Source of the DNA: an uncultured Lachnospiraceae bacterium
Lineage (GTDB): Bacteria > Bacillota > Clostridia > Lachnospirales > Lachnospiraceae
DNA: 52,048 nucleotides
Assembly: GCA_905235275.1 (NCBI GenBank)
Contig: CAJOLA010000003.1
Location: 1 to 52,048, forward strand
Reading direction: 5' to 3'
This document shows, piece after piece, positions 4,742 to 24,686 of this stretch. The notes under the pieces were generated by a model, which was not told the DNA's origin, made no database searches, and saw nothing but the letters and a program-made list of their open reading frames with translations. Each line of letters starts with the position of its first letter. Position 1 is the stretch's first letter. Made by a program: the position numbers and the translations under genes.

Positions 4742-6019
4742 TTAATTGAGCGGCTGTCCGTTAGGCCATACCCAACCGACATAAGCTCCACCCGTCCAGT
4801 TGGCGACCGTCTGAATATCCTGAATTCTTACGCCGCCACCGTTGTGGGCAATCATATTACCGCCAACATATATACCGATATGACCGTATCCGCCGTTGGC
4901 AGCGGACGGAGCAAAGATTACGCAGGATCCGATAGGAATTGAAGTTCCGGCCGGTCCTCCCGAATAACTCCATTTAACCCAATACTGATAAGCATCTCCA
5001 TGCGGAGGTGTAACACCGGCCATTGCATAAACTCCGGAAACCCATGCCGCACACCAGCCGTATGTTGCCGGGTGAGAACTGATTCCTCTGCTTGCGTAAT
5101 CGGCAACTCTTGCAGCAGTTCCTGAGCCATAAGATGACTCCAACGATACTGAACCGCCTGAAGATGAACCGCCTGATGAAGATCCTCCCGAATAAGAACG
5201 TCCGGATGAACTTGCAGCGGCAACTCTTGCTGCAGCTTCCTCAGCGGCACGACGCTGTCTTTCGAGCTCTGCCTGTCTTATACGCTCTTCCTCTTCAGCA
5301 ATTGCTGCGGAATTCTTATCTATCTCGCTCTGCGCATCTGCAATTCTGCCGGCATTATTTGCAAGATCTGAATTAATGGAAGACAGATAATCCTCTTTCT
5401 GGCTAACCAGCTCTGCAACCTCAGCCCTTCGCTGATTCATCTCTTCTTCGGCTTTTTTTATCTCTTCAAGCTCTACCTCAAGTCTGCCCTTGAGATCTTC
5501 AATCTCGCGCCTTGTGGCCTCTATCTCATCAAGCTTACCACGGTCATAGTCATAAATTTTCTGATAATATTCCATGGAATTAAGAAGATCCGCCATGCTT
5601 CCGGAAGAAATAAAGGTTTCGGCAACATCAGCATTCTGGTTCTCATACATGTACTGTATGCGCAGCTTCATCTCGTTATACTGTCTGTTTTGGATGGCAA
5701 TCTGCTCATCGAGCTTCTGGTTGGTTTCAAAAATCTGTGCCGTAAGCTCGGAAGCCTGCACATCAAGCTCATTAATCTTATCGAGCAATTCTTTAAGCTG
5801 CTTCTCTAAAGCATCTATCTCTTCCTGAGTCACGTCCTTTTTATTCTGAAGATCATCGGATTTCTTTTCCAATTCTTCCTGTTCCCTGCGCAACTCTTCC
5901 TGCTTTTCTTTAAGATCATCAAGAGTATCAGCGTAAAGCGTCGGAACGGTAGCCGTCACCGCTGCGGCAGCAACAATTCCGCATATTACTCTGAAAAGTT
6001 TTGATTTTCTCTTTCTCAT
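4742..6019 (-). CDS. PcsB-like peptidoglycan hydrolase: signal peptide, coiled coil, CHAP domain
   Basis: Signal-like N-term MRKRKSKLFRVICGIVAAAAVTATVPTLYA, long coiled coil, Ser/Gly linker, C-terminal CHAP-like YGWCAAWVSGVYAMAG...GHIGIYVGGNMIAHNGGG. Start chosen at the ATG behind GAGGGG. Confidence 0.88.
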   Translation of the reverse strand: MRKRKSKLFRVICGIVAAAAVTATVPTLYADTLDDLKEKQEELRREQEELEKKSDDLQNKKDVTQEEIDALEKQLKELLDKINELDVQASELTAQIFETNQKLDEQIAIQNRQYNEMKLRIQYMYENQNADVAETFISSGSMADLLNSMEYYQKIYDYDRGKLDEIEATRREIEDLKGRLEVELEEIKKAEEEMNQRRAEVAELVSQKEDYLSSINSDLANNAGRIADAQSEIDKNSAAIAEEEERIRQAELERQRRAAEEAAARVAAASSSGRSYSGGSSSGGSSSGGSVSLESSYGSGTAARVADYASRGISSHPATYGWCAAWVSGVYAMAGVTPPHGDAYQYWVKWSYSGGPAGTSIPIGSCVIFAPSAANGGYGHIGIYVGGNMIAHNGGGVRIQDIQTVANWTGGAYVGWVWPNGQPLN

Positions 6020-6053
6020 ATTACCCCTCGCATATGATAAATATTTCAAAATT

Positions 6054-6081
6054 ATTACAATAGTATTACATCTATATTACC
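6054..6081 (-). promoter_or_regulatory. Candidate WalR-type operator array (GGTAAT-N5-TGTAAT-N5-TGTAAT)
   Basis: Minus strand GGTAATATAGATGTAATACTATTGTAAT; two exact TGTAAT half-sites and one near match at 11 bp period, upstream of the PcsB-like gene. Confidence 0.5.
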
Positions 6082-6144
6082 ATACAAGTATAAATAAAGC
6101 AATAATGCACATCACGGACATCTCAGATGTAATTTTTTTTAAAT

Positions 6145-7839
6145 TCAACCGGGTTCTTCCAATCCTTTTGCAGCAACATCGCCTTCTCCCGCCCCCACTC
6201 TTCTAAGCCTGGTTTTAAGATTTAATCCGATGCCGAAAATCAGCGGTGAGGTATAGACGAGCGGCAATGCATACCTGATATGCGACAGCGGTGATGCCAA
6301 AAACAATACTACCGTCACCAGAATCGGAATGATAAAAATAATCTCATTTTTCTTTTTGCGTTTTATGCAACGAACTATGGCAAACAGCGGAATCCAAAAA
6401 GAATAAAACACATTATCAAACAAAAAAGATACGCCCGGTATCCCGGCAAGAAAATCATATACGCCAAGATAAAGCTCCCGAACCGGTCTTGTAGCATCGG
6501 AATTCTTCAACTCCTTAAAGTATGTCTGAGACGTTAAATCCCTGTGAAGCTCTATGGTTTTTACCGGCGCATAAAATCCGCCGCAGTTTCCTAATGTTGC
6601 TTTAATATAAGAATCGGGTTTTCTAAATCCTGTTCTTATCCATAATTGGGTAAATGCGCTGTTATCTTCAGACGTCGCATAAAAATTATACGTGTCTTTA
6701 ATGCCGTCACTGCAATCATATATGTAGTTGGTTTTTATATTTTCGTAATCAATGACATTGGAAAGAACTCTTTTTTCATCGTCATTATAATAATCAGGAT
6801 AATCAATATCTACCCTGGCAACCTCCTGAAACATAGGCCCAAGCCTTTCCTGTCTGCCCCCGGGGTAAATGTTGGCCATCGGAAATATAATATGCGGCAA
6901 AACAATCAGCATCATCACAATCGGTGCAGCCAGTGCCCCCAATATATATCCGCGCCATTTAAAATCAGACTTTACGGTTGCAAAAAGCAACGCAATATTA
7001 GACGGTATTACAATATAAAGCCCTAATTTTTTGGTAAGACAAAGAAGTACCGACAGGATTATAAATGCAATAAGTTGTTTCTTCGTAGTTTTTTTTGTAA
7101 GCAATATACTTGCAAATATGACAAAATACCATACAAAAACAATTGAGAAAACAGAGTCCTTAACCATCGAGAACGAATAAACGGCAATAACCGGATTTAT
7201 CAAAATAAATATTATTAAAATCGGCGTCGGTATTCTGATCTTAAGCTTATTCATGAAGCATATCATGTATGAAATCGCCGTCGATGTCGCCACCATGGAC
7301 AGTATGGAATAAATAAAAAAACCGATATTTATATTTCCAAAAAATCTTCCCACATAGAAAAAGAATGAAAAAATAAGTGTATCAAAAACAGGATGATGAT
7401 CATTTAAAAATACACTTATTTCCACCTGGCCCTGCTTCCAATCAAAAGGAAGCGGCTTTGTGCCCGTAACAAAATCGTTTATCTGGTTTATCGTATCCCA
7501 ACCGCAAACTCCGGGATAAAAAATAATCGCAACAGGAAGATAACACAGCGAAATCAATATAGTGCCTTTTAAGAGTCCTTTAAGGTTAGGCTCAAATATC
7601 TTTATGTCACGAACTGAAACGTTATATTTAGCTTCAAAAATATGTATGACAAAAATGAAAGCTAAAAATAATACGAAAAATAAAGCCGTCTCCAATACAA
7701 AAGCAACTGCATTGCCACCCGGAATTACGAACTCGTGATACTTGTAGACGTTATATGCACATGTCGTAAAAAGTGACAATACAGCAGAAAAAATAATATC
7801 GAATAAATTTATGCCTTTAAATTTCTCGCTTTTAGTCAT
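6145..7839 (-). CDS. Polytopic membrane protein (DUF6020-like/glycosyltransferase-like envelope protein)
   Basis: Many predicted TM segments; FYPGVCGWDTINQINDFVTG...LNDHHPVFDTLIFSFF. Family call from recall only. Confidence 0.65.
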   Translation of the reverse strand: MTKSEKFKGINLFDIIFSAVLSLFTTCAYNVYKYHEFVIPGGNAVAFVLETALFFVLFLAFIFVIHIFEAKYNVSVRDIKIFEPNLKGLLKGTILISLCYLPVAIIFYPGVCGWDTINQINDFVTGTKPLPFDWKQGQVEISVFLNDHHPVFDTLIFSFFFYVGRFFGNINIGFFIYSILSMVATSTAISYMICFMNKLKIRIPTPILIIFILINPVIAVYSFSMVKDSVFSIVFVWYFVIFASILLTKKTTKKQLIAFIILSVLLCLTKKLGLYIVIPSNIALLFATVKSDFKWRGYILGALAAPIVMMLIVLPHIIFPMANIYPGGRQERLGPMFQEVARVDIDYPDYYNDDEKRVLSNVIDYENIKTNYIYDCSDGIKDTYNFYATSEDNSAFTQLWIRTGFRKPDSYIKATLGNCGGFYAPVKTIELHRDLTSQTYFKELKNSDATRPVRELYLGVYDFLAGIPGVSFLFDNVFYSFWIPLFAIVRCIKRKKKNEIIFIIPILVTVVLFLASPLSHIRYALPLVYTSPLIFGIGLNLKTRLRRVGAGEGDVAAKGLEEPG

Positions 7840-20953: not shown

Positions 20954-21865
20954 TTATTCAGAAATATTGGAATTATCGAAATCCAGATTTTGATTAAGAT
21001 TTAAGTTCTCTCTGTAATATATATCAGAGTTACCGTCTATCATTATACGAACGCTTTTTATTTCATTTAATTCGCAAAGTGAATTAACAACGGCATATAC
21101 GGGAAGATTCCCCGAAGCATTTACATTACCGTTTGCAAACATGGAATCAAAATTCACATAGCATACGCCTTCACGAACGGATACTCCAAGAAGCTTGGTG
21201 TCCTCAGGAATTACGGGGTAAAGCCCCGCCTCAACGGGACCGTCCACAAGCCTGGATACAATCATCTTCTCAATTGATTCGTTATTATTATAAGCAATAT
21301 TGGTATCGGTCCTTATAAGCTTATCACCGCTTTTATCGGTAAAATAAAGACCGACATTCTTCCACTGGGCATCAAAAAACAAATCATTGGATTCATCTAT
21401 GTAGTCTTCGCTCTTTAGATTCTCCAGCTTTACACCGGATGCAAGTTTAATGATTCCCTTGGAATCCCGAATATTTAAACCCTCAACGCCCTCTATCTGA
21501 TAAACGGTCTTTACAAGTGCCGTTCTGTACATGGCCTCAGTCGTTTTATCCATCTCATTGTAATTATCCGAAAAGGTTATGATTACAATGCCTTCCTGCA
21601 TGCTGACATTTTCCACTTTAACATCGTCAGGTTTAATGGCAACATTTAATTCATTCGATCCCGTCTTATCGGATTCGGCAAGCAGTTCCTTTACAAGCTC
21701 TACCGTATCTTTGGTTTGCGTTGAAAATTTACTTACCGTAAGCCTGGTACCGGTAACATCGGTATGATAGATCATATACGTACCGTCGGAGGGACCGCCG
21801 CAACCGGCAAGCACGGCGCATGATGCGACTGCTGCAATCATTAAATTCTTAAATGATTTTATCAT
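20954..21865 (-). CDS. GerMN-domain lipoprotein
   Basis: Lipobox-like VASCAVLAGCGG; two GerMN-like repeats (VENVSMQEGIVIITFSDNYN...; LLGVSVREGVCYVNFDSMF...). Confidence 0.85.
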   Translation of the reverse strand: MIKSFKNLMIAAVASCAVLAGCGGPSDGTYMIYHTDVTGTRLTVSKFSTQTKDTVELVKELLAESDKTGSNELNVAIKPDDVKVENVSMQEGIVIITFSDNYNEMDKTTEAMYRTALVKTVYQIEGVEGLNIRDSKGIIKLASGVKLENLKSEDYIDESNDLFFDAQWKNVGLYFTDKSGDKLIRTDTNIAYNNNESIEKMIVSRLVDGPVEAGLYPVIPEDTKLLGVSVREGVCYVNFDSMFANGNVNASGNLPVYAVVNSLCELNEIKSVRIMIDGNSDIYYRENLNLNQNLDFDNSNISE

Positions 21866-23376
21866 ACGTCCACAACCTCCGTTCTTTGAGAGCTTTTATT
21901 CTTAAGCGGAATCTTAACGGTAAATACGGTCATTCCGTCGTCCCCGTTCTCACTCTCGGGCTCACTGTAGAGCTTGATCTGTCCGTCATGCATAAGTACA
22001 ACACTCTTAACGATGGAAAGACCGAGTCCCGTACCTCCCGTCTCTCTGGATCTTGCTTTATCCACACGGTAAAATCTCTGGAATACATTCTTTTGCTCGT
22101 CTTCGGGAATACCGCATCCGTTATCCTCAATCCTCAAATAAAAGAATTCATAATCGGCATTAAGAGACACATGTACAAAGCCGTTTTCTTTGTTATATTT
22201 AATGGCATTCTCAATGAGATTCGTTGCAACCTGAGTGATTTTACTCTCATCAATCTCAGCCTCTACCGGTCTGATACTCTCGAAAACAAGCTCTATTTTC
22301 TTACGATCGGCAATCGGCGTAAGCTTCTTCATGACCTTTTCAATCAATTCGTTGATGTTTACAAGACTGAGATTCAGATTGGAAACGGAGTTATCCATCC
22401 TTACCAATGAGAGAAGATCTTCGATAATGTCATTCTCCCTGTCAATCTCATTAGCGATATCCTGCATGAATTCCCTGTAAAGCTCTACGGGTGCGTCGGG
22501 ATTTGCAAGAAGTGAATCGGCAAGAAGCTTAATAGAAGTCATCGGTGTCTTCAACTCATGAGATACATTCGATACGAATTCTTCCCTGGACTTATCGAGC
22601 TCGCTCGCATTATCCAAAATATCATTAAACTGTATTGAAAAATCCTCGAACTCGGTATAGCCGTCCGCATGAATACGGTTCTCGGTCTTTCCGCCGGCTA
22701 TATCATCAACCTCGCTTTTTACGTATCTGAACTGGTTACGGAACTTAACGGCAAGGAATCCTGCTATAACCGCAAGCGACAATACGACCGCTACCGTAAT
22801 AAGAGTTGAATATCCGTGAACATCGGCTATGGATGCATTAATTTTGGACATGTTACGTCCGATAAGTACCGTTCCGATATTCTCCCCGGCATTGTTTTTA
22901 ATGATTGATGCACTCTCTACTATCGTATTATCACGGACATATGTTGATACACCGGCGCCTGATTCCACGGCTTTTACGGCACTCTCATTAATAAGTGTCT
23001 TTCCGGCATCGAATCCGTAAGTATCAAGTACAATATTATAATTATTATCAAGAATCCTGATTCGAAGTTCATTAATGGAAGCAAAATGAGTATAGACATC
23101 AAACTGTCCGGAAACCTCCGCGGCTTCCAGCGATGCATAGCTTTTCATCTCATCCGCGATAACGGTAGTCTGCATACGGACACTCTCTGTCTCTGTATCG
23201 GAAATAATATTACCGAAGTAATAGTTATCGAGAATATTCATGACCGTAGCCGGAACTATCGCAAAAATCGCAAGATATAAAAAGATTCTGAATGCAAAGC
23301 TACGAAAAAAACGCTTCAGAATCGATAAAAATCCTGAAGTCTTTTTTTCTTCATTTGCTTCGTTAACATTAGGCAT
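21862..23376 (-). CDS. WalK-like sensor histidine kinase
   Basis: Two TM, extracytoplasmic sensor, HAMP, HisKA (FVSNVSHELKTPMTSIKLLADSLL), HATPase (RIEDNGCGIPEDEQ, GTGLGLSIVKS). Overlaps GerMN by 4 bp. Confidence 0.9.
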   Translation of the reverse strand: MPNVNEANEEKKTSGFLSILKRFFRSFAFRIFLYLAIFAIVPATVMNILDNYYFGNIISDTETESVRMQTTVIADEMKSYASLEAAEVSGQFDVYTHFASINELRIRILDNNYNIVLDTYGFDAGKTLINESAVKAVESGAGVSTYVRDNTIVESASIIKNNAGENIGTVLIGRNMSKINASIADVHGYSTLITVAVVLSLAVIAGFLAVKFRNQFRYVKSEVDDIAGGKTENRIHADGYTEFEDFSIQFNDILDNASELDKSREEFVSNVSHELKTPMTSIKLLADSLLANPDAPVELYREFMQDIANEIDRENDIIEDLLSLVRMDNSVSNLNLSLVNINELIEKVMKKLTPIADRKKIELVFESIRPVEAEIDESKITQVATNLIENAIKYNKENGFVHVSLNADYEFFYLRIEDNGCGIPEDEQKNVFQRFYRVDKARSRETGGTGLGLSIVKSVVLMHDGQIKLYSEPESENGDDGMTVFTVKIPLKNKSSQRTEVVDV

Positions 23377-24061
23377 GGAAATAATATCCTACTCCCCACT
23401 TGGTATGAACAAAACGCGGATGAGCGGGATCCTCCTCAATCTTCTCACGCAAACGTCTGATATGTACATCAACGGTTCTTGCATCACCCGGGAATCTGCT
23501 TCCCCAGGCTTCCTTCAAAAGGCCTTCTCTGCTGTAGACCTTATTGGGATGCTTAGCCATAAGCTCAAGGAGGTTAAACTCTCTTGCGGTCAGATTAATC
23601 TCACGTTCATTTATATAAAGTGTTCTGCTTTCGGTATCAAGAACAAAATCTTTATAACGAAGAACCGTATCGCTGTCTTCGACCTTAACTTCCTTTTTGC
23701 TGTTCCTTCGCAAAATGGCCTTGATTCTTGCTTTTACCTCAAGTATGTTGTAAGGCTTTGTGATATAGTCGTCCGCTCCGTATTCAAGACCCATTATCTT
23801 ATCCATATCCTCACCCTTGGCGGTAAGCATGATAATCGGAACGTCGGAAAATTCTCTGATCTCACGACAAACCTGTAAGCCGTCAATCTTAGGCAGCATC
23901 AAATCCAAAAGTATAATATCGTATGAACCGGTCTTTACCTTGTTAAGGGCTTCTTCTCCGTCATAGGCGCCCGTCACTTCCATTCCGTCCTGCTCCAGGC
24001 TGAAAGTAAGCCCCTTAACAATAATCTTCTCGTCATCTACAACCAATACTTTTGTGGCCAT
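23369..24061 (-). CDS. WalR-like OmpR-family response regulator
   Basis: Receiver VLVVDDEK, IILLDLMLPKIDGLQVCREIR, IIMLTAKGEDMDKIMGLEYGADDYITKPY; winged helix GDARTVDVHIRRLREKIEEDPAHPRFVHTKWGVGYYF strongly resembling WalR. Confidence 0.92.
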   Translation of the reverse strand: MATKVLVVDDEKIIVKGLTFSLEQDGMEVTGAYDGEEALNKVKTGSYDIILLDLMLPKIDGLQVCREIREFSDVPIIMLTAKGEDMDKIMGLEYGADDYITKPYNILEVKARIKAILRRNSKKEVKVEDSDTVLRYKDFVLDTESRTLYINEREINLTAREFNLLELMAKHPNKVYSREGLLKEAWGSRFPGDARTVDVHIRRLREKIEEDPAHPRFVHTKWGVGYYFHA

Positions 24062-24080
24062 TCACGGTTCCCCCTGCAGT

Positions 24081-24686
24081 TTAAATTGTAATTAAGTCCT
24101 TAATTTTCTGAAACGAAGCATCCTTTATTCCGGATACCTTTTTTATGTCTTCAATAACTTTAAAGGAACCTTTTTCATCGCGATAGGAGATAATTGCCTC
24201 AGCCCTCACCTCACCGATTCCGGGAAGCGTCATAAGAGTGGCTTTATCGGCATAATTAATATTTATCAGTCCGTTTCCGGATACGGCGGGGGTAGCTCCT
24301 GCACCCTCCTGCGCATTAGCGGCCTCCTGCGCTTCGCCAACGGATGCAATTGTTATCTGCTCCGCATCGGTTAATTCTTTTGCGAGATTCACGCATTTAA
24401 GATCGGCATCCGCGGTTGCGCCTCCTGCCTTACCCAAAAGATCCGACACCCTGGAGCCCGTTTCCATTGTATACACCCCGGGGTTATTAACCTCTCCGCA
24501 AATATATACGACAATTTCCCGGGCCGGAGTATCTCCGGTTTCGGACTCTCCTTCGGAGCCTTCAGTCTCGCTTCCTATGACAAAATCGTCAGACTCTTCC
24601 GATGATGATGCCTTCGTGAATGCAAAAATACCTGCAATTACAATCAAAGCCGCTATTACTGATAGTTTAATTTGTTTTGTTTTCAA
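24081..24686 (-). CDS. comEA: ComEA-family DNA-binding protein (SLBB + helix-hairpin-helix)
   Basis: IVVYICGEVNNPGVYTMETGSRVSDLLGKAGG and LININYADKATLMTLPGIGEVRAEAIISYR. Start codon is TTG. Confidence 0.93.
   Translation of the reverse strand: MKTKQIKLSVIAALIVIAGIFAFTKASSSEESDDFVIGSETEGSEGESETGDTPAREIVVYICGEVNNPGVYTMETGSRVSDLLGKAGGATADADLKCVNLAKELTDAEQITIASVGEAQEAANAQEGAGATPAVSGNGLININYADKATLMTLPGIGEVRAEAIISYRDEKGSFKVIEDIKKVSGIKDASFQKIKDLITI

Follow-up and report, generated by a model that had tools for sequence, protein, structure and literature searches.

A putative WalR-type operator of three phased half-sites behind the promoter of a PcsB-like wall hydrolase gene in Lachnospiraceae

The window discussed here, by which we mean the whole stretch of 52,048 nucleotides analysed from an uncultured, rumen-type Lachnospiraceae bacterium, holds a gene for a secreted wall hydrolase with a short array of direct repeats just ahead of its coding sequence, and a two-component regulatory pair further along. 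It also holds a 6S RNA gene on the plus strand (RF00013, 46360-46540, 65.9 bits). The relevant features are as follows.

4742-6019, minus strand: secreted coiled coil plus CHAP/NlpC-type wall hydrolase, PcsB-like, 425 aa from the ATG (fold model, alignment, synteny)
6024-6029, minus strand: ribosome-binding site GAGGGG (sequence reading)
6043-6048, minus strand: half-site 3, TGAAAT, one mismatch, 11 bp after half-site 2; lies in TGAAATATTT, 10/10 identical in 3/3 orthologues
6054-6059, minus strand: half-site 2, TGTAAT, 11 bp after half-site 1; identical in 3/3 orthologues
6065-6070, minus strand: half-site 1, TGTAAT, 3 bp past the -10; CGTAAC in both orthologues
6074-6079, minus strand: -10 element TAATAT, extended (TGG before), 17 bp from the -35; TGN-TA(A/G)TAT in all three orthologues, 5/6 identical
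6097-6102, minus strand: -35 element TTGCTT; TTGCTT/TTGCCT in G005 and G008, 5/6 identical in all three
20954-21865, minus strand: GerMN-domain lipoprotein, downstream of the kinase; two Germane domains (PF10646)
21862-23376, minus strand: cognate sensor kinase, HisKA plus HATPase_c (Pfam; adjoins the regulator across the family)
23369-24061, minus strand: WalR-like OmpR-family response regulator, proposed binder of the array (NCBIfam, DNA-binding-domain matches, 42/42 near-complete relatives)

The hydrolase is modelled as long helices (residues 28-125 and 142-267) followed by a C-terminal domain, with a mean pLDDT of 71.6 and structure matches, not strong ones, that include PcsB (4cgk), FtsEX/EnvC and RipA; 4cgk was aligned over 403 columns with an E value of 0.0037 and a low TM score. 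In the sequence alignment Cys323 is nearly invariant and His380 invariant. The protein scores 29.5 bits against a cut-off of 450 for NCBIfam PcsB (NF046104), and Pfam CC_PcsB is not reported for it, though it is reported for a paralogue in the genus. The regulator, similarly, has YycF (NF040534) as its best NCBIfam match, at the top of 105 families, with 266.6 bits against an equivalog cut-off of 340, while the kinase reaches 233 bits against the WalK cut-off of 725 and shows neither HAMP nor PAS in Pfam. As all three proteins fall below equivalog cut-offs, we use '-like' names only and do not file the pair as WalRK; the labels 'WalRK' and 'PcsB' are sound in this looser sense and not as equivalogs.

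The WalR-like C-terminus that had been ascribed to the regulator is clearly there. Indeed, the top solved matches of its DNA-binding domain are S. aureus WalR (2zxj), B. subtilis YycF (2d1v) and E. faecalis VicR (2hwv), and its recognition helix, GDARTVDVHIRRLREKIE, differs little from the WalR helix, GDVRTVDVTIRRLREKIE. The gene is single-copy and family-wide, being found in 57 of 61 relatives and in every one of the 42 near-complete genomes, with a second, weaker match in two of the 57. The gene order comEA-RR-HK-GerMN-comEC-holA (20954-24686 here, minus strand) is conserved across Lachnospiraceae, so that competence-type genes flank the WalR-like pair, and the GerMN lipoprotein is possibly an accessory protein.

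Read directly, the minus strand from 6081 to 6054 runs GGTAAT-ATAGA-TGTAAT-ACTAT-TGTAAT, reproducing the letters originally given, and the claimed match to the WalR box, TGTWAH-N5-TGTWAH, is exact at 6054-6070. The make-up of the triplet had to be revised. GGTAAT (6076-6081), at first taken as the third phased half-site, overlaps the conserved -10 hexamer and reads GATAGT in G005; we rejected it as a half-site because it is part of the -10 and does not keep the half-site form in that genome. A phased TGAAAT at 6043-6048 had been overlooked; it is recovered as a one-mismatch match in a scan of the bacterium's own genome and is the same in both orthologues. The three half-sites thus start 3, 14 and 25 bp after the -10, each is followed by an A, and the array begins 3 bp downstream of the -10 and reaches into the 5' UTR. 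The distance of about 35 nt first reported between the end of the array and the start of the gene is right without TGAAAT, and shrinks to about 24 nt before the ATG (6017-6019) if TGAAAT is included. The promoter has changed as well: the TTGTAT-16-TACTAT pair proposed earlier is not kept in orthologues and was dropped on that ground, and the promoter that is kept there is TTGC(T/C)T-17-TA(A/G)TAT with TGN before the -10.

Repeats that, like those of other forward-oriented sites, fall within the predicted transcribed leader might act as RNA, within the 5' UTR of the hydrolase transcript. We consider this very improbable: in all three orthologues the predicted folding of the leader does not surpass that of shuffled sequence (z 0.58, 0.08 and 0.40) and the leader has no match in Rfam, which led us to reject RNA structure there, and elsewhere the motif also occurs mirror-oriented upstream of the -35, outside the gene's transcript.

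True orthologues number two, G005 and G008 (the uncultured Lachnospiraceae RUG10926 and RUG12106), the only close orthologues in the scan of named genomes, and both have the order pgsA-recA-hydrolase-recX-rny. A DUF6020 membrane-protein gene (6145-7839, minus strand) has been inserted between recA and the hydrolase gene in the source species only, recA adjoining the hydrolase gene in G005 and G008; despite this insertion, the promoter block is retained. When the upstream regions are aligned the array is kept before both true orthologues, just as the original prediction would have it, the three-way alignment reading TTGC(T/C)T, 17 bp, TGN-TA(A/G)TAT, (T/C)GTAA(T/C)-ACT(A/C)T-TGTAAT-A(A/T)TTT-TGAAATATTT. 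Here CGTAAC, the first half-site in two of the orthologues, is one base off consensus. No other non-coding block in either orthologue of the PcsB-like gene is as well conserved as the array, and across the three sequences 28 of its 32 positions are identical against 22 of 69 in the remaining non-coding stretch (p = 1e-7).

Other homologues in the genus are some 41-48% identical and do not adjoin recA. Upstream regions in G001 and G003 are without the site, the homologue in G007 has a loose-consensus match only (TGTTAA-N5-TGTTAT), and the motif is absent upstream of the paralogue in the bacterium's own genome (C90). Distant PcsB homologues from the family were unusable as an orthologue test, since they are not syntenic and mostly paralogous. 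In G002 a perfect triple TGTAAT array (L084, G002:C32:17549-17576) separates a PcsB-like gene from a CHAP gene that diverges from it; the array stands far upstream of the PcsB-like gene, at about 300 bp, and probably serves the CHAP gene.

How often the motif occurs depends on how it is written. The site at 6054-6070 is the sole TGTWAH-N5-TGTWAH in the window, where 0.35 are expected, and 27 of 100 window shuffles contain at least one, so that a single match alone is not significant; the whole 1.26-Mb draft genome has 12 matches against 12 for the reversed-pattern control, which is chance. These chance counts led us to reject the loose consensus as evidence. Among the 12 matches, those containing TGTT lie in coding sequence or not before a gene start, and most of the strict ones lie at gene starts and gene boundaries. 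The strict form, TGTAAY-N5-TGTAAY, occurs 6 times against 0 controls in the bacterium's own genome, a test picked after inspecting the matches. The genus and family tests, which are largely independent of that choice, give 41 against 7 for the genus (11 genomes, binomial p = 6e-7) and 705 against 270 for the family (150 Lachnospiraceae genomes, Wilcoxon p = 4e-20), the motif exceeding its own control in 120 of the 150 and falling below it in 9. Under the refuting condition first set for the box, chance frequency across the genome, the loose form would fail; the excess is real for the strict form. In addition, the genus favours the N5 spacing (of 331 pairs distributed among 21 spacings, 41 have it, with about 16 expected), and the TGTTAY variants of the Bacillus consensus are not enriched (25 against 21), which is why TGTT half-sites were rejected as part of the motif. 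A chance match in A+T-rich DNA, consistent as it is with the loose counts in window and genome, is already contradicted by the strict-form enrichment, the spacing preference, the conservation and the gene context, and hardly deserves credence; we hold it almost certain that the array is a functional regulatory DNA site.

The strict box is met again ahead of other genes for secreted wall hydrolases, in the genus as well as in the family. Three strict sites in the bacterium's own genome precede genes for secreted wall-type proteins (the PcsB-like gene on C3, and others on C13 and C61), two more are near gene boundaries (C8 and C64) and one is within a transposase gene (C2). Sampled family sites are intergenic in 39 of 60 cases against 11 of 30 control sites (p = 0.014) and stand before an exported-like gene in 26 of 60 against 4 of 30 (p = 0.005), exported-like being defined by a simple hydrophobicity rule and the 60 sites being taken in listing order. 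Pfam matches in the target proteins include NlpC/P60, Hydrolase_2 (cell wall hydrolase), CHAP, SH3, GH18, LytR_cpsA_psr and CAP, with weak choline-binding matches.

Two sets of sites are of separate interest. In three genus genomes (L058, L060 and L083) the box stands before a conserved non-secreted gene that looks like DUF1848, a target that makes a misfit with a wall-only regulon. A strict box (L007, G000:C8:28216-28232) lies at the 3' end of an S1/CvfB-like gene, with the next gene preceding an ftsE-like gene, and could link the regulon with FtsEX.

What, then, binds the array? The likely binder is the WalR-like protein at 23369-24061. Direct repeats of 11 bp are a common target of OmpR/PhoB-family regulators, the genome encodes four Trans_reg_C proteins of which three are further candidates, and E. 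coli PhoB boxes are similar (PMC4168254), so one of those three proteins, or an unrelated factor, might be the binder instead. We think this quite improbable: the recognition helices of the other three regulators differ, that of 23369-24061 being the one close to WalR's, this regulator is family-wide like the motif, and the targets are wall hydrolases.

The sign of control is best approached through position. Family-wide, with orthologous genus sites collapsed by hand, the end of a strong promoter's -10 lies 0-22 bp upstream at 12 of 25 forward sites, where shuffles give 0.13, and the start of a strong promoter lies 0-22 bp downstream at 4 of 15 mirror-oriented sites, where 0.09 are expected. 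The two remaining combinations of orientation and side are not significant (promoters downstream of forward sites, for example, number 2 against 0.96 expected), and orientation is associated with side (Fisher p = 0.007), which gives the repeat a fixed polarity relative to the promoter. An extra [CT]GTAAY half-site lies 9-10 bp upstream of the pair at 8 of 24 forward sites, with 0.1 expected. Mirror boxes L008, L061 and L080 lie upstream of a TTGACA-17-TATTAT promoter, with an additional half-site within the spacer, and the genes behind them encode secreted choline-binding-like proteins.

WalR sites of S. aureus that lie between the -35 and -10 or downstream of them are associated with repression, and those upstream of the -35 with activation (PMC10746227); applied to an array downstream of the -10, this rule predicts repression, and we think that the regulator probably represses the hydrolase promoter. 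The original prediction held repression to be as plausible as activation; both can indeed be entertained, but the corrected geometry favours the former. The same operator and regulator could instead activate, either because transcription in fact starts downstream of the array or because binding behind the -10 aids initiation. The classical hydrolase targets would suggest as much, since WalR~P of B. subtilis activates yocH, lytE and cwlO while repressing iseA (PMC7299342), and bmsH of S. mutans is activated although its site lies downstream of the promoter (PMC4168254). The window promoter is also weak (TTGCTT/TAATAT), others elsewhere being near-consensus, and the G002 array is remote from its PcsB-like gene. 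We regard activation as unlikely all the same, given that all orthologues keep the -35/-10 pair ahead of the array, that promoters downstream of forward sites are not in excess, and that a position past the -10 is associated with repression in S. aureus.

We prefer to read the array as a WalR-type operator bound by the 23369-24061 regulator and probably negative in effect, and give this reading as a whole a probability of about 0.58. The operator would consist of the three phased half-sites, TGTAAT, TGTAAT and TGAAAT, 11 bp apart, the first of them 3 bp beyond the -10 and the series reaching into the 5' UTR; the phosphorylated regulator would bind it as tandem dimers on one face of the DNA and block RNA polymerase or its escape. 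In physiological terms, a silent kinase would leave the hydrolase expressed and an active one would keep it down. The sites at other hydrolase genes mostly sit just behind strong promoters, with a minority mirror-oriented upstream of the -35, where the same regulator would activate. Sequence, conservation, enrichment, position and the kind of target gene are observed; the binder, the sign of control and its physiological sense are inferred. Pneumococcal pcsB is activated by WalR, and this, with the activation of cwlO, lytE and bmsH, the missed YycF cut-off, the three other OmpR-family regulators, the availability of only two true orthologues and the non-syntenic genus homologues that lack the site, have it in loose form or carry it far upstream, counts against the preferred reading. 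The broader claim of a conserved cell-wall circuit, operator included, survives in the conservation of the site, the strict-form enrichment and the WalR-like regulator, and loses the original triplet make-up, the -10 and the loose-form enrichment.

More tentatively, and with rather less than even confidence, the family-wide patterns suggest a Lachnospiraceae WalR-type regulon of inverted logic, one that would mainly repress near-consensus hydrolase promoters through three-half-site operators behind the -10, with mirror sites upstream of the -35 activating a smaller set and the polarity fixed. WalR is the best-known essential regulator of the Bacillota, and Lachnospiraceae are a dominant gut and rumen family; to our knowledge, work on WalR has been almost confined to Bacilli and C. 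difficile, and our literature search found no paper on WalR in Lachnospiraceae. Sites of this kind are already known. As far as the literature searched shows, what appears to be new is how widely they occur in Lachnospiraceae, the tighter half-site consensus, the grouping of three half-sites in arrays behind strong promoters, and the repeat's fixed polarity towards the promoter. The strict motif predicts targets from sequence and the position predicts repression, which makes the sign of WalR hydrolase control directly testable in Lachnospiraceae, and raises the question of whether hydrolases are released once the kinase falls silent.

Among known systems, the closest is the WalR (YycF) box of B. 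subtilis and S. aureus, TGTWAH-N5-TGTWAH, which is likewise a direct repeat with an 11-bp phase before secreted wall hydrolases and has the same position classes relative to the promoter. Unlike that box, the Lachnospiraceae half-sites are limited to TGTAAY and often number three, the extra one lying 9-10 bp upstream of the pair or, at the present locus, 11 bp downstream; and whereas the repressed gene in B. subtilis, iseA, encodes a hydrolase inhibitor, most forward sites here lie behind near-consensus promoters of the hydrolases themselves. The pho box of E. coli PhoB is also a head-to-tail repeat of the OmpR/PhoB family with an 11-bp phase, but its half-site is TGTCA, and the DNA-binding domain of our regulator scores clearly higher against WalR structures than against PhoB. 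Compared with the VicR target of Streptococcus, the present gene is PcsB-like in architecture only, and the predicted sign is opposite to the activation of pneumococcal pcsB. The array does share with the S. mutans VicR box, footprinted as TGTWAHA-N4-TGTWAHA (PMC4168254), the A after the half-site, present in 3/3 half-sites of the window. Finally, C. difficile WalRK is a clostridial WalR-type system too, and WalR overexpression there represses one putative D,L-endopeptidase that has consensus matches upstream, in an organism whose operon is walA-walR-walK-truA2 (PMC9210968), unlike the competence-flanked arrangement found here.
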